This document shows, piece after piece, positions 2,386 to 16,212 of a DNA stretch of 64,000 nt. The notes beneath the pieces were generated by a model. That model made no database searches and was not told the origin of the DNA. It saw only the letters and a list, made by a program, of their open reading frames with translations. Source of the DNA: an uncultured Ruegeria sp. (GTDB taxonomy: Bacteria > Pseudomonadota > Alphaproteobacteria > Rhodobacterales > Rhodobacteraceae). Each line of letters opens with the position of its first letter. Within the stretch, counting starts at the first letter, position 1. Made by a program: the position numbers and the translations under genes. Location of the stretch: assembly GCF_947500045.1 (NCBI RefSeq), contig NZ_CANMQQ010000006.1:62001-126000 (forward strand), written 5' to 3'.

Positions 2386-3558
2386 TTATACGGCCTGTGC
2401 AGCCGCTGCCCGCGCGATTACCAACTCTTCGTTTGTAGGAATGACCATCAATTTCACACGGGACAGATCAGTCGAAATAACTCGCCAGTTATCAGCGTTA
2501 GCATCATGGTCCAGCTCAATCCCCAGCCATCCCATGTCGGTACAGATACGGTCGCGGATATAGGTCGAGTTCTCGCCGATCCCGCCGGTAAACACGACGG
2601 CATCCAAACCACCCAGAACAGCGGCAAGTGCCCCCAACTCACGGCGGATACGAAACGTATAATAGTTGATGGCGTTGCGTGCGCCCGGTGTATCCGAGGA
2701 TTCGAGGGTACGCATATCATTCGTCATCCCCGAAAGACCCAACAGCCCGGATTTGCGATAAAGAAGATCAGAAATTTCATCCGCACTCATGCCCCTCTGA
2801 TCCATGAGATACAGAACAACGCCCGGATCCAGCTGGCCGCAGCGCGTTCCCATCGGCAAACCATCCATGGCCGAGAACCCCATGCTTGACCCAACCGAGC
2901 GGCCGCCGATCATGGCACACATCGATGCTCCGTTCCCAAGATGAGCTACGACCACCCGCCCACCGTGTATCAGCGGAGCTGTCTTGGCCAGATGATCCGA
3001 AATGTAATCATAACTCAGCCCGTGGAAACCATAGCGCCGAACGCCCATGTCATAATACTCGGTCGGCAATGCGAAGGTGTCATTGACCCACGGGTGATGA
3101 CGGTGAAAGGCCGTATCAAAACAGGCAACCTGCTTTGCGTCCGGGAACCTGTCCATAGCGGTACGAGCGCCATGCAGATTGTAGGGTTGATGCAGGGGCG
3201 CAAAAGGCTCAAGCTTTTCCAGCATTCGCAAACTGTCGGGGGTCAGTAGTATGGGCCTGTCGTTGTCTGGCCCACCATGCACAATGCGATGCCCTACTGC
3301 CACCACTCGTGCCGAAGGGAACTGCTGCTCCAGCAGATCCAGAATATAGTCCAACGCGCTGGCTTGATCGCGCAGGGCCTCAGACGTGGTATCCGCAATT
3401 ACCCGACCATCGACGGCACTTGCACTGATGCTGGCCGCCGGACTGCCGATGCGTTCAACCTCACCCGAGCAGATCAAAATCGGGTCGGCGTCACCAGACG
3501 TGAACAATCCGAACTTCAGCGATGATGACCCCGAATTCAGCGTGATTATATATTCCAT
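2386..3558 (-). CDS. ackA: Acetate kinase
   Basis: A 390-residue ASKHA kinase. It begins with ITLNSGSSSLKFGLF (phosphate-binding motif with the conserved Asn), has HRIVHGG near residue 95, CFDTAFH (catalytic Asp region) near 145, AHLGNGASMCA near 205, and FTGGIGENS near 325. It interconverts acetate + ATP and acetyl phosphate + ADP in the cytoplasm. Its ATG shares one base with the stop of the upstream MaoC/PTA gene (TGATG), so translation is coupled and the two form an acetyl-CoA/acetyl-P/acetate unit. In this genome it could also handle the acetyl phosphate made by Xsc. Confidence 0.95.
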   Translation of the reverse strand: MEYIITLNSGSSSLKFGLFTSGDADPILICSGEVERIGSPAASISASAVDGRVIADTTSEALRDQASALDYILDLLEQQFPSARVVAVGHRIVHGGPDNDRPILLTPDSLRMLEKLEPFAPLHQPYNLHGARTAMDRFPDAKQVACFDTAFHRHHPWVNDTFALPTEYYDMGVRRYGFHGLSYDYISDHLAKTAPLIHGGRVVVAHLGNGASMCAMIGGRSVGSSMGFSAMDGLPMGTRCGQLDPGVVLYLMDQRGMSADEISDLLYRKSGLLGLSGMTNDMRTLESSDTPGARNAINYYTFRIRRELGALAAVLGGLDAVVFTGGIGENSTYIRDRICTDMGWLGIELDHDANADNWRVISTDLSRVKLMVIPTNEELVIARAAAAQAV

Positions 3559-4943
3559 CAGATCCCGTCCGACATTCGTGCTGCGTGCAGGGCTGCCACA
3601 GCACAGGAAGCCAACCGCGCCTTTTCATCATCCGCGCGGCTGTTTAGGATAATCGGTACCCGAGCGCCAAGAACGACTCCGGCCGCTTCGGCGTGGGCAA
3701 TATAGGTCAGCTGCTTGGCCAGCATGTTGCCCGCATCCAGATTGGGCACAACCAGAACATCCGCACGACCAGCCACCTCGGACACGATACCCTTGGTCCG
3801 TGCAGCCGCAATGCTGACCGCATTGTCCATGGCAAGCGGCCCGTCGACCAGACCGCCCCTGATCTGCCCCCGGTCGGCCATCTTCGACAGCAGCGCTGCA
3901 TCAATGGAAGATCGGATTGCCGGGGTTACCGTCTCGACCGCTGACAAGACACCGACTTTCGGCGCCCCTATCCCGATCGAGATCGCCAGATCAATCGCGT
4001 TTTGCGTGATATCGATTTTAGTCTCCAGGTCGGGTTCGATATTGATCGCTGCATCTGTCACTAATAAAGGGTGCGGCTGACCGGGAACATCCATGACAAA
4101 GACATGGGTAAAGCGACGCCCCATACGAAGGCCACGCTCGCGCCGAAGTGCCGCCCGCAGCAGTTCATCAGTGTGCAAGTGCCCCTTCATCAAGGCTTGG
4201 GCCTGCCCATCCGCAACCAGATCAACCGCCCTATTGGCAGCATCCAAATGATTTCGGACTGGTATTATCTCGGTGTCACCCAGCGGCAATTCGATCTCGC
4301 GCGCCGCGGCAGCAATCTTATCAGGATCTCCGATCAGGATCGGCTTGATGATGGTTTCGCGGGCAGCCAGCAAAGCACCGCCCAGCGCGTTGGGCTCTTC
4401 CGGGGCAACAACGGCGGTGCGGATCGGTGGCAGCGGGCGCGAACGATCAAGCAGCGCGTCAAAATGGCGATGTCTCTGCAAGACCAGACCGGGCACCTCG
4501 ATCTCATTGAATGACATCTCTTTTTCAGGCGCGACGACGACCGCCGTACCTGAGACAATCAGCGCCCCATCGCTGAGCCGGACAACGATGGTTTCCATCA
4601 CGACCTCGCGGTTCCCGCGCTTTTCAAGAACCTTGACGCGCGCAGTCAGCTCGTCCCCTGCTAAGGCATGCATACTGAATTCGAAACTCTGCGACTTATA
4701 TAGCGTACCTGCCCCCGGCAGGACATTTCCCAGAACCGCCGAGATCAGCGCACCAACGAACATGGCCGGGGCGATGGCCTCGTTCAACTGATCGCCATCG
4801 CCGTCTTCGGTGGACAGGTGTAAGGGATTGTGGTTGCCCGAGTTTGAGGCAAAAACAAAGAAATCATCTTCGGTGCAAATCCGTGTCAGTTCAGCAGTAT
4901 CGCCAACCTGTAACTGATCATATGGCTTGTTGTGGTATTGCAT
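3558..4943 (-). CDS. MaoC-like hydratase fused to phosphate acetyl/butyryltransferase
   Basis: A 461-residue fusion. Residues about 1-145 are a MaoC/hot-dog domain (ICTEDDFFVFASNSGNHNPLH, with the Asp/His typical of R-specific enoyl-CoA hydratases). Residues about 160-461 are a PTA_PTB domain (PNALGGALLAARE; LVTDAAINIEPDLETK; VDGPLAMDNAVS; VVPNLDAGNMLAKQL). The PTA part transfers an acyl group between CoA and phosphate. Placement directly before ackA makes it the probable phosphotransacetylase of this organism. I chose the ATG at 4943, which has GAGAGG just upstream; an in-frame ATG at 4976 has no ribosome binding site. The role of the MaoC domain is unknown; it may bring in a longer acyl-CoA substrate. 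Confidence 0.88.
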   Translation of the reverse strand: MQYHNKPYDQLQVGDTAELTRICTEDDFFVFASNSGNHNPLHLSTEDGDGDQLNEAIAPAMFVGALISAVLGNVLPGAGTLYKSQSFEFSMHALAGDELTARVKVLEKRGNREVVMETIVVRLSDGALIVSGTAVVVAPEKEMSFNEIEVPGLVLQRHRHFDALLDRSRPLPPIRTAVVAPEEPNALGGALLAARETIIKPILIGDPDKIAAAAREIELPLGDTEIIPVRNHLDAANRAVDLVADGQAQALMKGHLHTDELLRAALRRERGLRMGRRFTHVFVMDVPGQPHPLLVTDAAINIEPDLETKIDITQNAIDLAISIGIGAPKVGVLSAVETVTPAIRSSIDAALLSKMADRGQIRGGLVDGPLAMDNAVSIAAARTKGIVSEVAGRADVLVVPNLDAGNMLAKQLTYIAHAEAAGVVLGARVPIILNSRADDEKARLASCAVAALHAARMSDGI

Positions 4944-5019
4944 AGCGCCTCTCAGCGGCTGTTTTGCACCGACCATTATGAGATTTCAGTTAAACATCCA
5001 ATGACATTCACAGGGTTTT

Positions 5020-6312
5020 CTAGGGCTGAAAACCAGCAGGCACACCGAATATTGGCCGATCAAGCGTTGTTCCCGTCAACGCATCCAGGAACGCGACAAG
5101 ATCAGCGATCTGCTCGTCCGTCAATTCTTGCTGCGCAATATCGATTTTATGGCGCTGTCGATCCATCTCCCGACTGTCCTCCCAGACGATGAAATCGACC
5201 TTCTCCAACCAAGGCACCTTGGGTAGAGCCGCCATATCCGGGGTCCAGGCAGCAAGGCTTTCCCGAGGGTTCAGGTGATGGCGGATGATCCCCTCAAGAT
5301 CGGGGAAAGCACCGTTGTGACCATAGGGGGCGGTTTTGGAGACATTCCGCAGCATGGGCGTGCGGAACCGATAGGCGTCTTCCAACCGGTTGCTTTCCCC
5401 CACCCGACCCACATCGCGCGCATAGGGATCCCACTGCCGGGTCTTGCCCGGACCAAACGGGGGCAGCCCCAGCGCATGGAATTTCTGATCCGAAAGCAGC
5501 GGGCCAGAGTGGCAAGAGGCACACTCTGCATCACCAAAGAACAGGTTCATTCCCTCTTGTTGCTGCGGCGTCAGGGCCGAGCTGTCTCCGGCCAGATACT
5601 GATCGAATGGGCTGTCGGTACTGCGCCATTCCACAGCCATGAAAGCAGCAAGAACGTTCGCGATCTGGGTGATCGTGATATCCTCGGTCGTTTCAACCTC
5701 ATCGAACGCAGCCACGAAGGCGGCACCATACCTCGGATCGATCCGTACGCGTTTGGCTAGGATCGGCCAGCCCTTGTCGATCCGATCGTGCACCGCGCCT
5801 GTGACCTGATTCTCGGCCACATTCCCGGCCATCTCGAATTGCGAGGTCAGCGGGAACAGCGCCTGCGCGGCCAGTATCGAGTTCAACCCGTTGGGCAGCC
5901 ATTCCTGCGCCGGAGAATTGAAGCCATTGCCATACACATCAGAGATGCTGAGGCGTCCGTCATGGAAAACCGTATGGATGTCCTTTGCGCCCAGGTTCCA
6001 CAGCCCGGGCGAATTGCGCGGGATACGTTTGCGAATCTTGTCCGCGCCGCTTCCGGGGGTTCGATCCGGCCCAAGCCCGTGCCCGCCCTCGCCAATGCCC
6101 AGCGACAGTCCGTCCGAGGTGCCAAAATCCGGGTGATGGCAATGGGCGCAGGCGATGTTCTGGTTGCCAGACAGGATCGGATCGTAAAACAGTTGATGAC
6201 CAATGGCGGCCTGTTCCATATCAAAGGGGATGAAATCATCATCAGTCAGCGGGCGCGGCAGGTCTTGTGCCGTAGCGGCCCCGGCCAACAGGAAGGCAGC
6301 CCCATGCGCCAG
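5020..6312 (-). CDS. Di-heme cytochrome c peroxidase/MauG-like protein, probable non-ATG start
   Basis: About 430 residues with two haem c motifs, CAHCH near the N-terminus and CASCH in the second half, and the typical HDGRL and PYGHNGAFPDLEGI segments. This is the bacterial di-heme peroxidase/MauG family, which is periplasmic. The start is a problem. The frame stays open to an ATG at 6729, but everything beyond about 6312 is antisense to a good Sel1 gene. The residues just before the mature protein (LAHGAAFLLAGAATAQD) look like a signal peptide with an AxA-type cleavage site and can only be reached from a CTG at 6312 or a nearby alternative codon. The family is secure, the start is not. The substrate is unknown: peroxide or an oxidative protein modification. 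Confidence 0.8.
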   Translation of the reverse strand: MAHGAAFLLAGAATAQDLPRPLTDDDFIPFDMEQAAIGHQLFYDPILSGNQNIACAHCHHPDFGTSDGLSLGIGEGGHGLGPDRTPGSGADKIRKRIPRNSPGLWNLGAKDIHTVFHDGRLSISDVYGNGFNSPAQEWLPNGLNSILAAQALFPLTSQFEMAGNVAENQVTGAVHDRIDKGWPILAKRVRIDPRYGAAFVAAFDEVETTEDITITQIANVLAAFMAVEWRSTDSPFDQYLAGDSSALTPQQQEGMNLFFGDAECASCHSGPLLSDQKFHALGLPPFGPGKTRQWDPYARDVGRVGESNRLEDAYRFRTPMLRNVSKTAPYGHNGAFPDLEGIIRHHLNPRESLAAWTPDMAALPKVPWLEKVDFIVWEDSREMDRQRHKIDIAQQELTDEQIADLVAFLDALTGTTLDRPIFGVPAGFQP

Positions 6313-6774
6313 ATTGTATTTGCACTTTTCTGTCTCGCGACACCTGCGCTGGCCGAACTGGAACAAGCGCGCGATCTGATGGAAGCCGGAGAATTTGAGG
6401 CCGCCCGCGAAGAGCTTCTGCCAGCCGCCAGCTCTGGCAATGCCGAAGCCGAAGAACTGATCGGCGTAATGTATGGGCTGGGTCTTGGGGTTGACCAAGA
6501 CTATGAGCGGGCGTTCGAATGGTACCTGCGCGCCTCGCTGAAAGGCCATCCCGGCGCGCAGTCGGGGATTGGCTGGTATTACGAGCTGGGTCTGGGCCTG
6601 CCCGCGCCTGATCTGGTGCGGGCGTATATGTGGTACACGCTCAGCGCTATTGGCGGCGATCCCGATGCAGCGATCAGCCTTGAGGAAGTGGTCAAGAAGA
6701 TGTCGCCGGAGCAGATCGAAAAGGCGCATGTTCTGGTCAACGACTACAAAGGGTGGATGTACCCGTTTCGGTAA
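6304..6774 (+). CDS. Sel1-repeat (TPR-like) secreted protein
   Basis: A 156-residue protein with a clear signal peptide (MRQIVFALFCLATPALA) followed by Sel1-like repeats: AEELIGVMYGLGLGVDQDYE, AFEWYLRASLKGHPGAQSG, and AYMWYTLSAIGGDPDA. Such solenoids bind other proteins in the periplasm. The start is supported by GGAAGG 7 nt upstream. A much longer open frame from 5788 is antisense to the peroxidase gene and is not used. The gene is divergent from the di-heme peroxidase, and the two starts touch or overlap by about 9 bp, so they may share control or function. A hairpin at 6775-6798 follows. Confidence 0.8.
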   Translation: MRQIVFALFCLATPALAELEQARDLMEAGEFEAAREELLPAASSGNAEAEELIGVMYGLGLGVDQDYERAFEWYLRASLKGHPGAQSGIGWYYELGLGLPAPDLVRAYMWYTLSAIGGDPDAAISLEEVVKKMSPEQIEKAHVLVNDYKGWMYPFR

Positions 6775-6798
6775 GGGTCGGGCCGTAAAGCCCGACCC
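6775..6798. terminator. Bidirectional hairpin between the Sel1 gene and dctP
   Basis: A perfect 9-bp inverted repeat GGGTCGGGC/GCCCGACCC with a 6-nt loop lies directly between two convergent stops (6774 and 6805). It probably stops transcription from both sides, although there is no long T run on either strand. Confidence 0.6.
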
Positions 6799-6804
6799 AT
6801 CGAT

Positions 6805-7866
6805 TTAGTTCAGATCCGCATCGCGCGAAGAATTCACATCTGCCTCAGCCGCTGCAACTGCTTCGGTCAGTGCAGTGAACACCTCATCACCACGGGCAAC
6901 ATTGGTCTGGAACCACTCGTAAACCGGGGTTGCGGCGTCTTTGAACGCGGCTTTCTGATCAGGTGTTGGCACGTAAAGGTCACCGCCACCTGCAACGAAA
7001 TCCTCGTAGGCCTGGATCGACTTGCGTTTGGGCGAGGCAAAAGTTGCCTGCTGCAGAGCATAGAAACCATCGACAACAACACGGCGCATGTCCTCGGGCA
7101 TCTCTTGGAATTTGGCGTTGTTCATCCACCACAGCGCGCCCATATAGGCGTGACCATCCAGCGTGACGTATTGAAGACCCGCATCGGGGAACTTCATGCC
7201 CATGATGTCGGTAATCCCATTCTTGGACCCCTCGACAACACCGGTCTGGAAGCTGGTGAACAGTTCAGGCCACGGGATCGGGGTCGGCGAGGCACCGAGA
7301 GCTTTCACCAACTCCTGCGGCAGGTCAGCGACCACGGTGCGGATTTTCAGGCCTTCCATATCGGCAGGCTCAGCAACACGGCGCTGCGTGTTGGCAAAGT
7401 TGCGCCAGCCGCCGGTATTGCCGATGGTCATCAGACGTATCGCACCGCCGGAATCCTCCAGTGCCATGTCACGCATCTGCCTGGTGAAATCACCTGACAG
7501 AACATGCTCGGCTATCCGGTCGTCGGCCATCAGATAGGGTAGGTCCAACACCTGAACATAGGGGAAGATGCCAGAAGCGCCGCCCGAAGTTGAGATGTAG
7601 ATGTCGATGGTCCCATCCGCCACGCCCTGCAGGCATTCTGCCCCGTTCGAACACAGCTGCGTGCCGATGAACAGTTCGACTTCGATTGCACCGTTCGAAG
7701 CGGCCTCGACGTAGTTTTTGAAGACGACCAGGCCGTCATAATCCTCGTCGTTTTCGTTCGAGTTGGCAGTAGCGCGCAACGTATAATCAGCAGCTGCTGC
7801 CGCCATGGCGGATGCAGCCACCAGCGATGTGGCCACCGCTGCGGTTTTGATAAATCTTCTGAGCAT
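6805..7866 (-). CDS. TRAP transporter substrate-binding protein (DctP family)
   Basis: A 353-residue periplasmic solute receptor. It has a signal peptide (about residues 1-26, ending AMAAAAAD). The DctP fold is seen in VFKNYVEAASNGAIEVELF, DGTIDIYISTSG, MEGLKIRTV (the region with the conserved carboxylate-binding Arg) and PWPELFTSFQTGVVEGSKN. It delivers an organic anion to the DctQM permease encoded directly upstream. It is the last gene of a six-gene operon that starts with an SsuD-like monooxygenase. I infer the substrate to be an organosulfonate, possibly a sulfo-sugar or its glycoside, from these neighbours alone. Confidence 0.9.
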   Translation of the reverse strand: MLRRFIKTAAVATSLVAASAMAAAAADYTLRATANSNENDEDYDGLVVFKNYVEAASNGAIEVELFIGTQLCSNGAECLQGVADGTIDIYISTSGGASGIFPYVQVLDLPYLMADDRIAEHVLSGDFTRQMRDMALEDSGGAIRLMTIGNTGGWRNFANTQRRVAEPADMEGLKIRTVVADLPQELVKALGASPTPIPWPELFTSFQTGVVEGSKNGITDIMGMKFPDAGLQYVTLDGHAYMGALWWMNNAKFQEMPEDMRRVVVDGFYALQQATFASPKRKSIQAYEDFVAGGGDLYVPTPDQKAAFKDAATPVYEWFQTNVARGDEVFTALTEAVAAAEADVNSSRDADLN

Positions 7867-7890
7867 GCGTTTCCTCCCTGTGGTACTCAG

Positions 7891-9180
7891 TTAGTTTGCA
7901 AATCCCGTTATTCTCGGGATCGTCATGGATAGTGCCGGGATGTAAGTGATCAGGAAGATCACTATGATTTCGACTGCCAGAAACGGCAGGATCGCCTTGG
8001 CGATGGTTTCAACCCGTTCCCGCGACACGGCGGCAGCAACGAACAGCACGAGCCCCATGGGCGGCGTGGCCAGACCAACGGTCAGGTTGACGCTCATGAT
8101 GATCGCAAAATGGATCGGGTCCACACCGAGGCTGGTGAAGATGGGACCAAGGATCGGGCCAAGGATGATAATCGCGGGGCCTGCATCCAGGAACATGCCA
8201 ACAACGAACAACAGTAGGTTGATCAAGAACAGCAGGATCAGTGGATTTTCCGACAGGCTGAGGATAAGCGAGGCCAGCTGTTCTGGCGCATGGCTGAGGC
8301 TGACCACGGTCTTGAACGCCATCGCAGCACCAACCAGCAGCAGGACGACCGCCGAGGTCATGCCCGCGTTGCTGAGAATCTCAGGCACCTCTTTCAATGT
8401 CAGGGTGCGCAGGACAAAGAACCCGATGATGAACGCGTAGCCCACGGCCACCGCTGCAGCCTCGGTCGGGGTGAAGATGCCACCCAAAATGCCGCCCAGA
8501 ATGATCACAGGCGTCAGCAGTGGAAAGAAGGCCTTGAGACTGGCCTGACGACGCTCACCCCATGTGTATTTGCGACTGGCAACGGGGAAATCGTAGCGAT
8601 CGGCCATAACCTTGATCATCAGCATCAGGCCAACGCCAACCATCACCCCCGGCACGATGCCCGCAAGGAATAGCGCGGCCACGCTTTCGCCCATAACATA
8701 GGCATAGATGATCATGATGCCCGAGGGTGGGATGATCGGTCCGATCACCGAACTGGCCGCAGTGATCGCAGCCGCGAATTTGCGGGTATAGCCCTGTTTC
8801 TCCATCGCCGGGATCAGCATTGATCCAAGCGCCGAAGTGTCGGCTACGGCAGATCCAGACAGGCCGGCAAAAAGGATCGAGCTGAGTACATTCACATGCG
8901 CAAGGCCGCCCCGCAGGTGGCCCATCAGGGCCTGGCTAAACTCCACGAGGCGGATGGTGATACCGCCTCGGTTCATCAACTCTCCGGCCAGCATGAAAAA
9001 CGGGATCGCCATCAACGGAAAGCTGTCCATGCCGTTATAGACATTGCGGTAAAGCAACGTGATGTCGTTGGTCTGACCGCTGAGCCACAGTAATATGCCC
9101 GGAGCGGCCAGAAGCGCGAAGAAGACCGGTAGACCGATTAGCAGGAAGATCAGGAATGTGGGTAGGAACCAGATCAGCAT
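7891..9180 (-). CDS. TRAP transporter large permease (DctM family)
   Basis: A 429-residue polytopic membrane protein with about 12 hydrophobic segments. It carries the DctM hallmarks PFFMLAGELMNRGGI, SGSAVADTSALGSMLIPAM and GPIIPPSGIMIIYAYV. It moves the substrate with Na+ or H+ after delivery by the DctP receptor. Its ATG (9180) directly abuts the stop of the small permease gene (9181), as is usual for dctQ-dctM pairs. Confidence 0.93.
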   Translation of the reverse strand: MLIWFLPTFLIFLLIGLPVFFALLAAPGILLWLSGQTNDITLLYRNVYNGMDSFPLMAIPFFMLAGELMNRGGITIRLVEFSQALMGHLRGGLAHVNVLSSILFAGLSGSAVADTSALGSMLIPAMEKQGYTRKFAAAITAASSVIGPIIPPSGIMIIYAYVMGESVAALFLAGIVPGVMVGVGLMLMIKVMADRYDFPVASRKYTWGERRQASLKAFFPLLTPVIILGGILGGIFTPTEAAAVAVGYAFIIGFFVLRTLTLKEVPEILSNAGMTSAVVLLLVGAAMAFKTVVSLSHAPEQLASLILSLSENPLILLFLINLLLFVVGMFLDAGPAIIILGPILGPIFTSLGVDPIHFAIIMSVNLTVGLATPPMGLVLFVAAAVSRERVETIAKAILPFLAVEIIVIFLITYIPALSMTIPRITGFAN

Positions 9181-9768
9181 TTATTCGGCCCCCACTGCAG
9201 CTTCGGGAATTTCAGGCAGCAGATGCTCGCCACCAAGTAAGGTGACGACAGACCGCAGGACCAGTTCGATATTGACCAAGATCAGAAGGATGATCCCTAC
9301 CAGCAGCGATGCCATCATCCAGCTACGCGGAATGCGGTACCATTCATCGAACCCAAAAGAGGTGGGAAGATAGAGAGCCGCCGTGGCGAACCGGCCGCCA
9401 AAGCCAGTGACCTCGGACCAGCCAATATTGACTGCGACCAGCAGGACCACCAGCGAGATCAGCAGCAGAAACAGATTGAGCGATAGGCCAAGCACGCGTG
9501 GCAGGAAACGCTGCAACATATCGATGGCGACAAAGCCCCCGCGGCGGAACGCGGTGGGGGCCATCAGGCCAGTCATCCACAACATACAGAACCGCGCGGC
9601 CTCATCTGGCCAAGGCAGGGCGTTCCCCAGGACGTATCGAAAAAACACCTGGATCAGGATTGCGATGACCATGAATGCAATCGCAACAACACCAACCGCG
9701 CGGCCCAGACGCAGCGCGGTTTCGTTCACGAATGCAATCGGCGCCAGCGCCGATGCCAGTCCGCCCAT
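9181..9768 (-). CDS. TRAP transporter small permease (DctQ family)
   Basis: A 195-residue membrane protein with four predicted helices and the DctQ motif YVLGNALPWPDEAARFCMLW in the second segment. It forms the permease with the DctM protein. It is longer than many DctQ proteins because of a hydrophilic C-terminal tail. It follows the flavin reductase gene in the same operon (gap 53 bp). Confidence 0.9.
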   Translation of the reverse strand: MGGLASALAPIAFVNETALRLGRAVGVVAIAFMVIAILIQVFFRYVLGNALPWPDEAARFCMLWMTGLMAPTAFRRGGFVAIDMLQRFLPRVLGLSLNLFLLLISLVVLLVAVNIGWSEVTGFGGRFATAALYLPTSFGFDEWYRIPRSWMMASLLVGIILLILVNIELVLRSVVTLLGGEHLLPEIPEAAVGAE

Positions 9769-9821: not shown

Positions 9822-10340
9822 TTAGGTTTTCGCGAATTGGCCGAGTTTTCCGGCAAAGAAGGTCAGCGCGTCTCCATCCGCCATGCTGACCTTCAGGACT
9901 TTACCCACCACGATCACGTGATCGCCTGCATCGTGATAAGCGTGCTGCTCGCATTCGAACCGGGCAAGACTACCCGGCAATAAAGGGGTGCCGTTTTCAC
10001 AACGATCATGTTCGATATCGCGTAGCGCATGGGCGTCTTTTGAACAGCCAAAGCAAAGCTCGGCCTGTTCGGCAGACAAAACATGCACACTGAAATGGCG
10101 CGCCCCATGAAAATACCGGAACCGGCGCGAATAGCGATCGCCTGCCCACATAACCAGCGGTGGATCCAGCGACAGGGACGAAAAGCTGTTGGCCGTAATG
10201 CAGATCGGGCCATCTTCGCTGTCGCAGGTCACCACCGTAACACCCGTGGCAAAGCGACCAAAAGCGTCACGCAGGGTTCTTGTGTCGCCCTTATGCGGGA
10301 TGAATGTGTTGGTCATGTCACGTGAGATTGCGTTCATCAT
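9822..10340 (-). CDS. Flavin reductase (FMN reductase of a two-component monooxygenase)
   Basis: A 172-residue flavin reductase-like protein. It has LRDAFGRFATGVTVVT, ITANSFSSLSLDPPLVMW (flavin-binding core), HFSVHVLSAEQ and a DHVIVVGKV strand close to the C-terminus. It would use NAD(P)H to reduce free FMN and pass FMNH2 to a monooxygenase. The obvious partner is the SsuD-like enzyme two genes upstream. The ATG overlaps the aldo/keto reductase stop by 4 bp (ATGA). In the sulfo-SMO pathway the equivalent is SmoA. The assignment to that role is inference. Confidence 0.88.
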   Translation of the reverse strand: MMNAISRDMTNTFIPHKGDTRTLRDAFGRFATGVTVVTCDSEDGPICITANSFSSLSLDPPLVMWAGDRYSRRFRYFHGARHFSVHVLSAEQAELCFGCSKDAHALRDIEHDRCENGTPLLPGSLARFECEQHAYHDAGDHVIVVGKVLKVSMADGDALTFFAGKLGQFAKT

Positions 10341-11227
10341 GGAACCTCATGCCCTAGCGCTGCCTCATACAGGCGGAACCAGCTTTCGCGGTCTAGTTTG
10401 ACTTTCAATGCGTCTGAGGCGCGCCTGATGCGGTCCAAGTTATTTGTCCCCAAAACCGGCAGGATGATCGCCGGATGCGCGAGTAAGAAGGCAACCGCAA
10501 CGGCAGCGCGATCCACTCCGAATTCCGCAGCTATCTCATCTGCTACGACACCAACCGGAGGGTTGCCGGCCATCAGGAGCCCCCCACCCAGCGGGGACCA
10601 CGCCATCAGTGGATGACCATGCTGCTGATGGAATACCAGATCGCCATTGGTAAACGGGCTAATCTCACCGAGAGAAATTTCAATCTGATTGGTGACCAAC
10701 TGCGTTTTCATCGCCGATTGCAGCAAAGACCAGTCCCATGGACGGAAGTTGGACACGCCAACTGCGCCGACCTTGCCGCTGGCAACAACTTCATCCAGTG
10801 CCGCGCCGGTTTCATGGTGATCCATGAGCGGATCAGGGCGGTGGATAAGCAGCAGGTCGATATGGTCGATTGCCATTTCCGACAATGACGTATCAACCGA
10901 TTTCAGAATATGCGCCCGCGAGGTGTCGTAGTATTTAACCTTGGCATCCGCATATCGCCCCATTGGCGCGACGATGTCACACTTGGTGACGATCTCCATC
11001 TTCTGGCGCAGCCTGGGATTGGCGCGCAAGGCGTTGCCTAAAACGGCCTCAGCCGCGTATCCGCCGTAGATGTCGGCCTGATCGAAGGTGGTGATACCCT
11101 GATCCAGACAAGCCTGAATCTTGGCCTCCACATGCGCGGTCGACGTATCGCTGTCATCACCCAAGCGCCACATGCCATAGACAAGGCGGCTCATTTCCAG
11201 CGTGTCAGATAGTTTCACACGTTGCAT
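10337..11227 (-). CDS. Aldo/keto reductase, YdhF/SmoB-type
   Basis: A 296-residue AKR TIM barrel. The active-site tetrad is visible: Asp and Tyr in DQADIYGG, Lys in EIVTKCDIV, His in LLLIHRPDPLMDHHETG. The NADPH site includes VSNFRPWDWSLLQSA, TNQIEIS, WSPLGGG and LGTNNLDRIRRA. The closest groups I can recall are E. coli YdhF and the SmoB reductase of Agrobacterium, which reduces 6-oxo-glucose to glucose in sulfoquinovose breakdown. It lies between a flavin reductase and an SsuD-like monooxygenase, with a 1-bp TGATG overlap upstream and ATGA overlap downstream, which supports a linked pathway. The aldehyde substrate is inferred. Confidence 0.88.
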   Translation of the reverse strand: MQRVKLSDTLEMSRLVYGMWRLGDDSDTSTAHVEAKIQACLDQGITTFDQADIYGGYAAEAVLGNALRANPRLRQKMEIVTKCDIVAPMGRYADAKVKYYDTSRAHILKSVDTSLSEMAIDHIDLLLIHRPDPLMDHHETGAALDEVVASGKVGAVGVSNFRPWDWSLLQSAMKTQLVTNQIEISLGEISPFTNGDLVFHQQHGHPLMAWSPLGGGLLMAGNPPVGVVADEIAAEFGVDRAAVAVAFLLAHPAIILPVLGTNNLDRIRRASDALKVKLDRESWFRLYEAALGHEVP

Positions 11228-12381
11228 CAGCGACGAACTCCATTTCCCAGCGGGGTCGCCGGGGTGGTTGCAGGCACGCGCCCGTAGGCTTCGGGAAGCG
11301 AGCAGGTTTTCAGGTTGGGCATCACGCGGGCACCAAAATGTTTGGCTTCGTCCATGTGCGGATAGCCCGAGAAGATGAAGGCACGGATGCCCATCTTCTG
11401 GTACTCTTCGATCTTAGACATAACCTGATCGGTCGATCCGACCAGCGCCGCACCACAGCCAGACCGCGCGCGCCCCACACCCGTCCACAGGCCGGGTTCG
11501 ACATAGCCATATTCATCTGCCAGATCGCGGTTCTTGGACTGATGCGCCACGCCCAACGAGGTCGCATCCAGCGCCCGTTCGCGGATGGCGCGGCCATAGT
11601 CGTCATCCAGTTTCGAGACGATGTGGTCCGCGTATTCCTGTGCTTCGGCCTCGGTATCCCGAACGATCATGTGTACGCGCAAGCCGTAATCCAACGTCCG
11701 GTTGTAGTTTTCAGCGACAGTGTGAACTGCTTTCATCCGCTCGGCCAATTGATCCTTGGTTTCCGGCCACATCAGATAAACGTCACAATGCTCGCCGCAC
11801 AGATCCAGAGCAGATGGTGAGTAGCCACCAAAATAGAGCAGCGGACCACCGGTCTGAAAAGGCCGGGCCGGATCAGCGGTCAGGCCCGAGAAGTTGTAGA
11901 CCTCGCCCGCATGGTTGATCTCGTCCTGTGTCCAGGCCTGTTTCAGAATCTCGACCACTTCGCGCGACCGTTGATATCGGTAGGCGCTGTCAGCTTTCTC
12001 GCCAGGGAAATCGGACGAGATGATGTTGACCGTCAGCCGCCCTTTCAGCATGTGATCGAGCGTTGCGATGGTGCGGGCCAGCATGATGGGCTGCATCTCA
12101 CCACAACGCACGGCGGCCAGCAGGTTGATCTTTTCGGTGATCGGCGCGCAACCTGCGACAAAGCTCAGCGTGTCCTGACCGACCTGATAAGACGACGGGC
12201 ACAGGATGTTGCGGAACCCTTGCGCCTCGGCCTCTTTCACGATGCTGGAACAATGGTCCCAACTTGACCGCAGATCGCCATCGGGCAGCCCGAGGAACTG
12301 ATAATCATCCGAGCAGAGCGCAGCAAACCACGAAACCTCGGCCGCATCCAGATCGGGGGATGTGATGGGGACGATGGTCAT
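11227..12381 (-). CDS. LLM-class (SsuD-like) flavin-dependent monooxygenase, candidate sulfo-sugar monooxygenase
   Basis: A 384-residue bacterial-luciferase-like monooxygenase. Features: VSWFAAL at the N-terminus, the SsuD-type LLAAVRCGEMQPIMLARTIAT and GRLTVNIISSD, LLYFGGYSPSALDL (FMN phosphate region), and GIRAFIFSGYPHMDEA at the C-terminus. These enzymes use FMNH2 and O2 to cleave a C-S bond, giving sulfite and an aldehyde. The start at 12381 has GGAG 10 nt upstream; the longer frame to 12426 lacks one. It is the first gene of an operon with an aldo/keto reductase and a flavin reductase, the same trio as smoC-smoB-smoA of the sulfoquinovose monooxygenase pathway. A plain alkanesulfonate monooxygenase is the alternative. 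Confidence 0.85.
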   Translation of the reverse strand: MTIVPITSPDLDAAEVSWFAALCSDDYQFLGLPDGDLRSSWDHCSSIVKEAEAQGFRNILCPSSYQVGQDTLSFVAGCAPITEKINLLAAVRCGEMQPIMLARTIATLDHMLKGRLTVNIISSDFPGEKADSAYRYQRSREVVEILKQAWTQDEINHAGEVYNFSGLTADPARPFQTGGPLLYFGGYSPSALDLCGEHCDVYLMWPETKDQLAERMKAVHTVAENYNRTLDYGLRVHMIVRDTEAEAQEYADHIVSKLDDDYGRAIRERALDATSLGVAHQSKNRDLADEYGYVEPGLWTGVGRARSGCGAALVGSTDQVMSKIEEYQKMGIRAFIFSGYPHMDEAKHFGARVMPNLKTCSLPEAYGRVPATTPATPLGNGVRR

Positions 12382-12430: not shown

Positions 12431-12446
12431 ATTGATGTAGATCAAT
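12431..12446. promoter_or_regulatory. Candidate operator in the monooxygenase/GntR divergent promoter
   Basis: A perfect inverted repeat ATTGATgtagATCAAT lies in the 105-bp gap between the divergent SsuD-like monooxygenase and GntR genes. A third copy of the half-site, ATCAAT, follows at 12452-12457. Position and symmetry fit a site for the adjacent GntR/UTRA regulator. Inference only. Confidence 0.5.
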
Positions 12447-12486
12447 AGTGTATCAATTTTTCCCGCGACCGAATGAAGCGCCCTCG

Positions 12487-13197
12487 ATGACCTCCAACAG
12501 CCGCAACCCCAATGCCCTGCCGATCTATGTCCAGATCTCAGAGCTGCTGATCCGTGATATCGCGGCAGGTCGTCTGATCGATGGCGAGCGTCTGCCACCC
12601 GAGCGGGATATGGCAATCAATCTGAAGGTCTCAGTAGGCACGTTGCGAAAATCGCTCGCCGAGCTTGAGAAAAAAGGCATGTTGGAGCGCATTCAGGGTT
12701 CGGGCAATTACATCCGCGAAACCGGAACCCAGAACAGTGTCTACGCCATGTTCCGGCTGGAACTGCCTGAAGGCGGAGGTTTGCCGCGCGCCGATGTCTT
12801 GTCGGTTGAACACCTGGAAAAACCCTCAGATCTGCCAGAATTTGGCCAGTCGAAATACGCATCGCGGGTGCGTCGGATGCGCTATCTGAATGACACAATC
12901 ATCGCTGTCGAAGAAATCTGGTTGGACGAATCAGCCGGAACCATCGATCAGAGCCTGCTGTCTGACTCATTGTATCGCTATTATCAGCAACAGCTCGGCT
13001 TCTGGATCACACGGGCCGAGGACCGCGTTTCGGTAGGCGCATTGCCCGACTGGACGCCCAGCGGCTTCACCAAACCCGCGGGCCAGACGGCTGGGTTCAT
13101 CGAACGATTCAGTTGGTCTGAGAATGCTGAACCCGTCGAGTTTTCAAAAACATGGTTCGACCCGGATCGGGCCACATACGTCCAACGCCTGAAGTAA
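12487..13197 (+). CDS. GntR-family (HutC/UTRA) transcriptional regulator
   Basis: A 236-residue regulator. The N-terminal winged helix has PIYVQISELLIRDIAAGRL, GERLPPERDMAINLKVSVGT and RKSLAELEKKGMLERIQGSG. The C-terminal UTRA effector domain starts near residue 80 (RMRYLNDTIIAVEEIWLDE, FSKTWFDPDRATYVQRL). HutC-type regulators bind a small metabolite and usually repress neighbouring genes. I used the ATG at 12487 (MTSNSRNPNALPIYVQ) rather than 12448. It is divergent from the monooxygenase operon and 12 bp ahead of the Gfo/Idh/MocA gene, so it probably controls both. The inducer could be a sulfo-sugar or its product. Confidence 0.88.
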   Translation: MTSNSRNPNALPIYVQISELLIRDIAAGRLIDGERLPPERDMAINLKVSVGTLRKSLAELEKKGMLERIQGSGNYIRETGTQNSVYAMFRLELPEGGGLPRADVLSVEHLEKPSDLPEFGQSKYASRVRRMRYLNDTIIAVEEIWLDESAGTIDQSLLSDSLYRYYQQQLGFWITRAEDRVSVGALPDWTPSGFTKPAGQTAGFIERFSWSENAEPVEFSKTWFDPDRATYVQRLK

Positions 13198-13209: not shown

Positions 13210-14310
13210 ATGACCCGGACCATCAATTACGGGCTGATCGGATGTGGTATGATGGGGCAGGAACACCTGCACAATATCGCTCTGCTAAAGGGCACACGTG
13301 TTGCCGCAATACGGGAGCCTGACGCGGAGATGGCACAAACGGCGAAGGCCATCGCGCCCGAGGCGCAGATGGTTTCGTCCATTCAAGATCTTCTGGCGAT
13401 CAGTGATCTGGATTGTCTTGTGATTGCCAGCCCCAACCACTTGCATGTCGAACAGCTGGCCGAGATTGCTAAGACCCGCCCCCTGCCCCTGCTGATCGAG
13501 AAACCTCTGTTCACCGATCCCGCCGATCTTGACCGGCTTGAGGAGTTGGAACGCAGCTATCCTCACCCGATTTGGGTTGCGATGGAATATCGCTATATGC
13601 CACCCATCGCCGCGCTGATCGACAAAGCTGAAACCACCAGCGGTGGGGTCAAAATGCTTTCGATCCGCGAACATCGCTTCCCGTTCCTGGAAAAAGTCGG
13701 CGACTGGAACCGATTTAGTCGCAACACCGGTGGGACTTTCGTCGAGAAATGCTGCCATTTCTTTGACCTCATGCGCCTGATCCTGCAATCCGACCCTGTG
13801 CGGGTTTCAGCAAGCGGCGGACAAGCCGTCAATCACTTGGACGAGGAGTATGGCGGCGAGACTCCGGACATACTGGACCACGGCTATGTCATCGTCGATT
13901 TCGCCTCAGGTGCACGCGCCATGTTGGAGCTTTGCATGTTTGCTGAAGGCGCACGCTATCAGGAGGAGATCTCGGCTATCGGGCCCAAAGCCAAAATCGA
14001 AGCGCTGGTGCCTGGCCCTGGTCGGTTTTGGCCGGGGCATCTGGGTGACGCGCCTGTGCCACAGCTGATCACTAGCCCACGCTCACCGAAAGGCCCTGTC
14101 AAACAAGACATCCCGGTTGAACCGGAATTGCTGGCTGCAGGCGACCACAACGGTTCGACCTATTACCAGCACAAAGGCTTTCTGGAACTGGTCAGGGGGG
14201 AACGCGCGGTGCCCGAAGTCACTCTGCGGGATGGGATATGGGCTGTCCGCATCGGGCTCGCCGCGCAACAAGCGGCCGAACATGGCCGAACGATTAGCCT
14301 GATTGGATAG
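13210..14310 (+). CDS. Gfo/Idh/MocA-family protein; candidate NAD-dependent sulfoquinovosidase (GH188-like) or sugar dehydrogenase
   Basis: A 366-residue protein with an N-terminal Rossmann fold (YGLIGCGMMGQEHL), IASPNHLH, LLIEKPLF (the family EKP motif) and a C-terminal domain with NRFSRNTGGTFVEKCCHFFD. Family members oxidise sugars with NAD(P), and some are NAD-dependent glycosidases. A family of NAD-dependent sulfoquinovosidases (GH188) has this fold and occurs with sulfoquinovose genes. Here no GH31-type sulfoquinovosidase is present, so this protein may release sulfoquinovose from its glycosides. It follows the GntR gene with a 12-bp gap. Fold: certain. Glycosidase role: inference, with dehydrogenase as the alternative. 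Confidence 0.82.
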   Translation: MTRTINYGLIGCGMMGQEHLHNIALLKGTRVAAIREPDAEMAQTAKAIAPEAQMVSSIQDLLAISDLDCLVIASPNHLHVEQLAEIAKTRPLPLLIEKPLFTDPADLDRLEELERSYPHPIWVAMEYRYMPPIAALIDKAETTSGGVKMLSIREHRFPFLEKVGDWNRFSRNTGGTFVEKCCHFFDLMRLILQSDPVRVSASGGQAVNHLDEEYGGETPDILDHGYVIVDFASGARAMLELCMFAEGARYQEEISAIGPKAKIEALVPGPGRFWPGHLGDAPVPQLITSPRSPKGPVKQDIPVEPELLAAGDHNGSTYYQHKGFLELVRGERAVPEVTLRDGIWAVRIGLAAQQAAEHGRTISLIG

Positions 14311-14319
14311 ACGATAAAG

Positions 14320-16212
14320 TCAGAATATCACGTTGAGCATCAACAGCGAGACGATCAGAAAAATGATCGTCATGATCCCACCTGAACGGACGAAATCCAT
14401 CACCTTATACCCCGCTGGCCCCATGATCAGCGCGTTGACCTGATGGGTGGGAATAATGAAGCTGTTCGAGGTCGAGATCGCAACGGTCAACGCAAAGACC
14501 GCAGGATTGGCACCCGCGGCAACCGCGATTGAAACCGCAAGCGGCACCAAAAGCACGGTGGCCCCCACGTTTGACATAACCAGAGAAAACGCTGTCGCCA
14601 GAATTGCAACCCCGGCCTGAAGTGCCCAGATCGGCCATCCATCTAGGATGATCATGATCTGCTGCGCAATCCATGCTGCAGTTCCTGTATTCTGCACCGC
14701 CTGACCTAGGGGGATCAGACACGCCAGCAGAAAGACCGTGTTCCATCCGACCGCCCGGTACGCCTCATCCACGCTTAGCACACGGGACAGCATCATACCC
14801 GCAGCACCGGTCAGCAGACAAAGCGACAACCGCACATCCGTGAACAGGATCAGCGACAATGAGATCACGAAAAAGCCAAGAGCCCAGCCAACCTTTTGTG
14901 GGCGCAGTTCATCCTGTGGGAAGTCTGACGTGACAACTACAAAATCCGGGTCACGCTTGATCCGCATAAGGTTATCCCAGCGGGTATGGGCAACCAACAT
15001 GTCACCAGCCTTGAATTCTTCGAGGCCTATTTGCGTGGATTCATGCGTCTCGGTCTCTACATGGCTCAGCGTTTCCTCTCCCCTGTGGATGGCAAGCAGA
15101 GACATTCCATAGGTTTTGCGAAACAGCAGTTCACGAGGGCACTTCCCGATCAATTTGCTATCGGGTGTCACGACTACTTCGGCTATCCCGGCATTTGTCG
15201 GCGCAAATTCTTCAACAAAAACATCCAGATCAGGCAGAACGGTCAGCCCGTATTTTTCGGCAAATTCCTCAACAACCCATCGCCGTCCGACAATTGCCAG
15301 TCGGCAAGGCGCGGCGATCTCGGCCGTCAAAACCTGCACCATCGAGGTCTTGCCCCGATAAAATGTTGAAATGATATAGAGATGATTTTCAAAGTTGATA
15401 TCGGCCAAAATTTTCCCGACCAACGGGCTGTCTGCCGGAACCACAACTTCAAAAACATCAGCTTTCAGCCCGTAAACTCGCTGAAGATATTCCTGTGTTC
15501 CTCGACCGGTCCCGGTACTGTCCGAGCCAGCAGCACTTGGCAGCACCCAACGGCCCAGCAACAGGAAATACGCAATACCTGTCAAAATAAGCACCGCACC
15601 AATGGGCGTCACCGAGAAGAGCCCGAAAGGCTCCATCTGCTGTGCTTCGGGTAAACCTTCGTTAGCTGTCTGGATCAGATCATTCAGTAGGATCAGTGGC
15701 GACGACCCAACCATCGTCATCGTCCCGCCCAAGATTGCACAGAAACCCATCGGCATGAGCAAACGCGACAAAGGAATTCCCGATCTCGACGAGATGCGGC
15801 TGACCACTGGCAGGAACAGAGCAGCAGCGCCGACATTCTGCATAAATGACGAGATAACCCCAACAGTGCCTGAAATGATGGGCAATACCCGGCCTTCTGA
15901 TTTGCCGCCATATTTCAGAATTACCGAGGCAACTTTGTTCATCAGCCCCGTCTTGTCCAAGCCCGCGCCAACGATCATCACCGCAATAATGGAAATGACC
16001 GCGTTTGATGCAAAACCATCAAACAGATGCGGCACGTCGGCCAAATTCTCAAGCCCGGGCGCATAGCTCAACAAGCCGACAATGACTAAAACGAGAATGG
16101 CAGAGAGATCGATCCTGACGATTTCGGACACAAACAAGAAAACAGTGAACGCCAAAAGCCCGGACACCACGGCCATTTCGTAAGTAAATGCCAATTGCTC
16201 CACTAGGGTCAC
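14320..16212 (-). CDS. SLC13/DASS-type anion transporter with two TrkA-C (RCK_C) domains
   Basis: A 630-residue membrane protein. Two groups of helices (residues about 15-195 and 420-630) flank a cytoplasmic insert of about 200 residues with two RCK_C-like units (VVVPADSPLVGKILADINF and VVVTPDSKLIGKCPRELLF). Signature segments are SSFMQNVGAAALFLPVV and AISTSNSFIIPTHQVNALI. This architecture is found in transporters annotated for sulfate and other divalent anions. The gene converges on the Gfo/Idh/MocA gene with only 9 bp between stops. Sulfite or sulfate handling after desulfonation is an attractive reading, but the ion and the direction are not shown by the sequence. Confidence 0.85.
   Translation of the reverse strand: MTLVEQLAFTYEMAVVSGLLAFTVFLFVSEIVRIDLSAILVLVIVGLLSYAPGLENLADVPHLFDGFASNAVISIIAVMIVGAGLDKTGLMNKVASVILKYGGKSEGRVLPIISGTVGVISSFMQNVGAAALFLPVVSRISSRSGIPLSRLLMPMGFCAILGGTMTMVGSSPLILLNDLIQTANEGLPEAQQMEPFGLFSVTPIGAVLILTGIAYFLLLGRWVLPSAAGSDSTGTGRGTQEYLQRVYGLKADVFEVVVPADSPLVGKILADINFENHLYIISTFYRGKTSMVQVLTAEIAAPCRLAIVGRRWVVEEFAEKYGLTVLPDLDVFVEEFAPTNAGIAEVVVTPDSKLIGKCPRELLFRKTYGMSLLAIHRGEETLSHVETETHESTQIGLEEFKAGDMLVAHTRWDNLMRIKRDPDFVVVTSDFPQDELRPQKVGWALGFFVISLSLILFTDVRLSLCLLTGAAGMMLSRVLSVDEAYRAVGWNTVFLLACLIPLGQAVQNTGTAAWIAQQIMIILDGWPIWALQAGVAILATAFSLVMSNVGATVLLVPLAVSIAVAAGANPAVFALTVAISTSNSFIIPTHQVNALIMGPAGYKVMDFVRSGGIMTIIFLIVSLLMLNVIF

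Follow-up and report, generated by a model that had tools for sequence, protein, structure and literature searches.

The DNA analysed, a stretch of 64,000 nucleotides from an uncultured Ruegeria sp. (hereafter, the window), carries an open reading frame that extends from 13210 to 14310 on the forward strand. It starts with ATG and encodes a protein of 366 amino acids that harbors the motifs GCGMMG, EKP and FVEKCCHFFD, and Pfam assigned both domains, GFO_IDH_MocA and GFO_IDH_MocA_C, to this protein. The coordinates and the domains agree with the original prediction, which had described a Gfo/Idh/MocA protein with these motifs in a sulfoquinovose (SQ) module and had viewed it as a possible NAD-dependent sulfoquinovosidase of family GH188. 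The gene, named sqgA here, begins 12 bp after that of a GntR/UTRA regulator; both have the same orientation, and their cotranscription is likely.

The three components that characterize sulfo-SMO clusters (SmoA, SmoB and SmoC) are all found in the window, divergent from gntR-sqgA (Table 1). The SmoC-like protein is a luciferase-like monooxygenase. The PDB entries matched by the SmoC- and SmoB-like proteins, 7olf and 7bby, are presumably SmoC and SmoB themselves; the names under which they were deposited are generic or different. In PMC13372026, a sulfo-SMO cluster is recognized by the presence of SmoA, SmoB and SmoC within a span of 10 ORFs, and the module of the window falls within such a span. 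The MauG-like ORF continues as far as 6729, where it lies antisense to the gene for the Sel1 protein.

Table 1. Features of the sqgA region, with positions in the window.
Feature	Position	Strand	Basis or remark
MauG-like di-haem protein, two CXXCH by eye	5020..6312	-	start uncertain
Small Sel1-repeat protein, start resembles a signal peptide by eye	6304..6774	+	
TRAP solute-binding protein DctP, proposed SQ/SQ-glycoside receptor	6805..7866	-	Pfam, comparison
TRAP large permease DctM	7891..9180	-	Pfam
TRAP small permease DctQ	9181..9768	-	Pfam
Flavin reductase (SmoA role)	9822..10340	-	Pfam
SmoB-like aldo/keto reductase	10337..11227	-	E 6.7e-124 to 7bby
SmoC-like FMN-dependent sulfoquinovose monooxygenase	11227..12381	-	E 9.2e-213 to 7olf
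Conserved element TTGATGTAGATCAATAGTGTATCAAT in the smoC-gntR interval	12432..12457	.	promoter-interval scans
GntR/UTRA regulator	12487..13197	+	Pfam; ORF listed from GTG 12448, ATG 12487 likelier by eye
sqgA, predicted GH188-type NAD-dependent sulfoquinovosidase, 366 aa	13210..14310	+	Pfam, PDB search, alignment, fold search
Codons 154-162 of sqgA: E154 and sulfonate-binding R156, L160, K162	13669..13695	+	alignment; ligand contacts from PMC10755693
H313 codon of sqgA, aligned with catalytic His321 of ArSqgA	14146..14148	+	alignment

Conservation of this arrangement was examined in the best 80 of 591 confirmed related loci, which are 66-93% identical; among the matches listed, the loci nearest to the window belong to Ruegeria. 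When window proteins were used in tblastn searches, GntR, SmoC and SmoB were detected in 80/80 of these best loci and the flavin reductase in 78/80. The orientation is also constant, as gntR-sqgA lie on one strand and smoC-smoB diverge on the other in every one of the 80. A DASS-type transporter (14320-16212) was considered as part of the module and discarded because relatives were found in just two of the best 80 loci (L008 and L009).

In rhizobial smo clusters, an ABC transporter is found where the window has TRAP. Among the best 80 of 591 loci, an ABC sugar-type transporter and a PF03601 (YeiH-like) membrane protein replace TRAP beside gntR-sqgA/smoCB in L042, L047, L058, L066 and L084, as judged with Pfam on members from L042 and L084 alone. 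Relatives of the PF03601 protein occur in 23 of the same 80 loci. In L028, a locus without TRAP, a GH88-family protein (3423-5003, reverse strand) adjoins the SQ genes.

A phmmer search of PDB sequences placed three GH188 proteins as the best distinct matches of the window SqgA: 8zn9 (E 5.9e-170), 8qc2 (FlSqgA, E 1.1e-117) and 8qc3 (ArSqgA, E 5.8e-114). The next match, the inositol dehydrogenase 3cea, had an E-value of 4.5e-14. With values down to 5.9e-170, chance is no issue for the family match. Identity to the window SqgA, calculated by alignment, is 67.2% over the full length for 8zn9, 52.9% for FlSqgA and 51.5% for ArSqgA, and the next-best relative within the host genome is 30% identical (E 2.3e-17). 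The similarity to characterised SqgA proteins spans the full length and goes well beyond that to other Gfo/Idh/MocA proteins. SqgA groups with GH188, apart from the inositol dehydrogenases and from GH109, and this is the placement that the original prediction had called for.

The closest relative, 8zn9, was deposited as a marine sulfoquinovosidase under the entry title ‘A vast marine sulfonate-based carbon cycle fueled by novel sulfoquinovosidases’, and it has the same fold and all nine active-site residues (see below) in common with the window SqgA. The entry probably stems from the study of Ma et al. published in 2025 in Nat Commun. ArSqgA and FlSqgA, the founders of GH188 (PMC10755693), have the same catalytic and sulfonate residues and the same NAD-binding architecture as the window SqgA. 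One difference concerns context: GH188 was discovered through Arthrobacter sp. AK01 and its sulfo-EMP cluster (PMC10755693), whereas the cluster of the window combines sulfo-SMO genes with TRAP. The window SqgA is a further marine GH188 member, and the presence of the family in Roseobacter sulfo-SMO clusters is already published: according to PMC10755693, nearly all sulfo-SMO clusters from marine Roseobacter bacteria contain GH188, and the review PMC12890257 refers to Ma et al. 2025 on the occurrence of GH188 among marine Roseobacteraceae.

Because the superfamily is shared, SqgA might be a common dehydrogenase of the Gfo/Idh/MocA type that acts on a sugar or on inositol (for instance, an SQ 3-dehydrogenase) and would produce NADH without cleaving glycosides. 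The best-scoring NCBIfam model for SqgA is indeed inositol 2-dehydrogenase (IolG, TIGR04380). However, the score of 89.4 bits is well below the curated cut-off of 355, so that an IolG identity was rejected, and the three GH188 sequences from the PDB are far closer. Membership of GH109 was also rejected: at E<=1e-3, AmGH109A (6t2b) does not figure in the 39 sequences matched in the PDB, and Pfam gives no family named GH109 at this threshold either. As described in PMC10755693, the NAD-dependent N-acetylgalactosaminidases of GH109 have superfamily and oxidoreductive chemistry in common with GH188, but the catalytic Tyr226 of AmGH109A stands against a Glu in GH188; the window protein has E154 at this position.

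The residues of ArSqgA that contact SQ were taken from PMC10755693 and transferred to the window protein by alignment. ArSqgA K107, Y136, E164, R166, L170, K172, E189, H193 and H321 correspond to K98, Y127, E154, R156, L160, K162, E179, H183 and H313 of the window protein; the Glu163 of that paper is residue 164 according to the offset that fits the other ArSqgA residues. Both the sulfonate-binding residues (Arg166, Leu170 through its backbone, and Lys172) and the catalytic or sugar-binding ones (Lys107, Tyr136, Glu163/164, Glu189, His193 and His321) are therefore present, and the nine positions are invariant in 81/81 sequences (the window and the best 80 of 591 related loci). Variants at position 170 are described in PMC11465081; the window SqgA carries the common Leu.

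These positions also separate SqgA from its relatives in the same genome. Five of the six lesser Gfo/Idh/MocA paralogues of the host were aligned (L004 was left out). An equivalent of Lys98 is found in 5/5 and an equivalent of His183 in 4/5, as would suit a dehydrogenase, but equivalents of Y127, R156, E179 and H313 are found in 0/5. In view of these residues, the IolG score and the PDB matches, we regard a dehydrogenase as very improbable. Still more remote is the idea that an enzyme of GH188 fold acts on glycosides of another sulfosugar or of an acidic sugar: the SQ substrate is deduced from residues and context, but the sulfonate triad R156-L160-K162 is intact, SmoC- and SmoB-like proteins are adjacent in 80/80 of the best 80 of 591 loci, and in related genomes GH188 also adjoins sulfo-EMP-like genes.

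An AlphaFold model of SqgA was obtained from 18 sequences (pLDDT 86.7, pTM 0.87). When the PDB was searched with this model, ranks 1-12 were all occupied by GH188 chains (8zn9, 8qc2, 8qc3, 8qc5, 8qc6 and 8qc8), and the predicted fold gave query-normalised TM scores of 0.86-0.94 to the 12 chains, with values of at least 0.92 for 11 of them. A putative inositol dehydrogenase appeared at rank 13 (E 2.1e-24), and other Gfo/Idh/MocA oxidoreductases were found from there on. As pLDDT drops below 50 in the sulfonate loop (residues 160-167), no claim about the pocket is based on the model. In a tree, the window SqgA was found with Ruegeria, and 20 GH188 rows were grouped together (100/99). The outgroup, taken from the host genome, sits on saturated branches; hence little was gained from the tree over the similarity scores alone, and it was not used as evidence.

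Altogether, family placement, the sulfonate and catalytic residues, the SQ genomic context and a host without GH31 support the GH188 reading, and we hold it as highly probable that 13210-14310 encodes a cytoplasmic sulfoquinovosidase, SqgA, predicted to act on SQ glycosides that are imported intact. Our own analysis contributes placement, active-site residues, gene order and co-occurrence; mechanism and substrate are those of the characterised relatives in the literature. A cytoplasmic location would fit the lack of a signal peptide by eye and the position of the Rossmann motif at the extreme N-terminus. The glycoside, which may be sulfoquinovosyl glycerol or another SQ glycoside, must then enter the cell first, probably through the adjacent TRAP transporter. 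The mechanism proposed in PMC10755693 involves oxidation of C3 by NAD+, departure of the aglycone, addition of water and reduction of C3, and uptake of deuterium at C2 has been shown for FlSqgA. The same active-site residues make the same mechanism likely for the window SqgA: bound NAD+ would transiently oxidise C3 of the sugar, the aglycone would be eliminated, and water addition followed by re-reduction of C3 would yield free SQ with no net use of NAD. SmoC and the flavin reductase would then remove sulfite, and SmoB would reduce the resulting 6-oxo sugar to glucose. If the assignment is correct, the bacterium can probably use SQ glycosides, beyond free SQ. The amount of sulfoquinovose produced per year is put at about 10 billion tons in PMC10755693, and most of it occurs as glycoconjugates.

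The GntR protein may regulate the module, and a candidate regulatory element is found in the smoC-gntR interval. Its core is a 14-bp palindrome, TTGAT-N4-ATCAA, which matches the FNR box consensus. The core is exact in the smoC-gntR interval of 57 of the best 80 of 591 loci, and the 1.56 Mb of locus sequence contain just two copies outside this interval. A further half-site downstream, ATCAAT, is kept in 57/57 of the loci with an exact core. One of the promoter scans covered 75 sequences including the window (6 of the 80 loci were left out), and the scan for core and extension covered all 80. In the host genome, 12 exact core sites were found vs 1 for the pattern read backwards; the extension is present at one of the 12 only, the smoC-gntR site. 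Within the window, matches to the palindrome with at most one mismatch are not above chance (5 vs 2.26 expected, with 5 or more in 7 of 100 shuffles). In view of the conserved extra half-sites, a dedicated operator is no less likely than an FNR box, and TTGATGTAGATCAATAGTGTATCAAT may be bound by GntR, by an FNR-type protein or by both.

The original prediction had also stated that the module lacks a GH31 gene, and had suggested that SqgA replaces the GH31 enzyme. Both statements fit the data: SqgA lies in an SQ catabolic cluster without a GH31 sulfoquinovosidase, and no GH31 domain (PF01055) was detected in the whole 4.46-Mb host genome (0/1), while an identical search was positive in 6 of 14 control genomes including E. 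coli. The general point of such a replacement had already been made in PMC10755693. The family at large was considered by scanning 394 of its genomes (393 genera) with thresholds of E<=1e-60 for SqgA and E<=1e-100 for SmoC. SqgA was found in 193 genomes and SmoC in 165, and 163 of the latter also have SqgA (Fisher p 3e-76). Of the 60 top-listed among these 163 genomes, G296 was left out; in 58 of the other 59, sqgA and smoC are no more than 3 kb apart, and the gap is 6.3 kb in the remaining one, G179. Two genomes, G094 and G281, harbor SmoC but neither GH188, as no matched relative exceeds 33% identity, nor GH31.

GH31 proteins of any kind are found in 44/394 genomes of the family. As 29 of the 165 SmoC genomes are among them, GH31 and SmoC/SqgA are not strictly exclusive. 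Among the coordinates listed, a GH31 gene close to sqgA was seen by eye in G211 alone. This protein was rejected as a counter-example to replacement: its best matches in the PDB are alpha-glucosidases, and neither sulfoquinovosidase nor YihQ appears among the names of the 44 entries that it matches there at E<=1e-30.

SqgA was detected without SmoC in 30/394 genomes, and the sqgA regions of 13 of these 30 were read. A PfkB-type kinase gene is present in 11 of the 13, a DeoC/LacD-type aldolase in 9, and a fucose isomerase-like gene in 10, the match of the member tested being weak and sub-threshold; for each of the three groups, one member was run through Pfam. This set is in line with a sulfo-EMP-like pathway. 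The remaining two regions, L116 and L120, are not sulfo-EMP-like. The TRAP system of the window is present in 12 of the 13 regions, including 10 of the 11 with the kinase, with DctP proteins 72-85% identical to that of the window; the next DctP of the host genome is 26% identical to it (6805-7866). Two different pathways share GH188 and TRAP, which argues that TRAP carries their common substrate. These data suggest a shared entry block that imports an SQ glycoside and contains an unexplained haem enzyme.

The genes for the Sel1-repeat and MauG-like proteins lie beyond dctP in 44 of the best 80 of 591 SMO loci and in 8 of the 13 regions without SmoC, among them 7 of the 11 kinase-bearing ones. 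Where present, their order is constant: dctP and the MauG-like gene share a strand, and the Sel1 gene is encoded on the opposite one. A MauG-like match is missing from 36 of the best 80 of 591 loci and a Sel1 match from 34, some loci being incomplete; the two proteins are thus hardly essential to SQ use. At genome scale, a high-scoring MauG-like relative was found in 110/394 genomes, using a threshold (E<=1e-140) that was set after a two-humped score distribution was seen. SqgA is present in 106 of these 110; the others are G097, G152, G281 and G334. The high-scoring protein is found in 26 of the 30 genomes with SqgA alone vs 80 of the 163 with both SqgA and SmoC.

A tentative interpretation is that TRAP, Sel1 and the MauG-like protein (5020-9768) join GH188 in a transferable module for the entry of SQ glycosides, kept while the downstream chemistry is swapped between sulfo-SMO and sulfo-EMP-like, and that the MauG-like protein and the divergent Sel1 protein are unrecognised periplasmic members of SQ utilisation; we see the chances of this proposal as evenly balanced. 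Against it stand the loci that lack MauG-like or Sel1 matches and the five in which ABC genes replace TRAP. By its family, the MauG-like haem protein would be periplasmic, and what it oxidises or modifies could be, for example, the Sel1 protein or a substrate that has yet to be taken up. In a word search of the literature that did not extend to the supplement of PMC10755693, no paper was found in which ‘sulfoquinovose’ and ‘MauG’ occur together. Nor did we find a description of a TRAP transporter in SQ-glycoside import, in a search whose scope excluded two Roseobacter SQ papers (Ma et al. 2025; Liu et al. 2023) and the same supplement. The sole paper with both ‘sulfoquinovose’ and ‘TRAP transporter’ is, from its title and abstract, a study of taurine, and in passages of PMC12421959 ‘trap’ either refers to chromatography or belongs to the word ‘trapping’. 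While the GH188 enzyme itself is one more marine member of its family, the shared TRAP-Sel1-MauG block could matter more, as it names a likely glycoside importer and a haem enzyme without an assigned role in sulfosugar metabolism.

Individual loci show variations on this arrangement. In L118 and L121, the Sel1/MauG pair lies about 2 and 3.4 kb from dctP, respectively. The MauG-like and kinase genes of L112 and L115 have a 4-bp overlap and belong to a single gene run that includes sqgA. In L116 (G040:C37), where smoC has no match, sqgA, gntR, smoB, the flavin reductase gene and TRAP are present, and the smoB and gntR matches are separated by about 280 bp.
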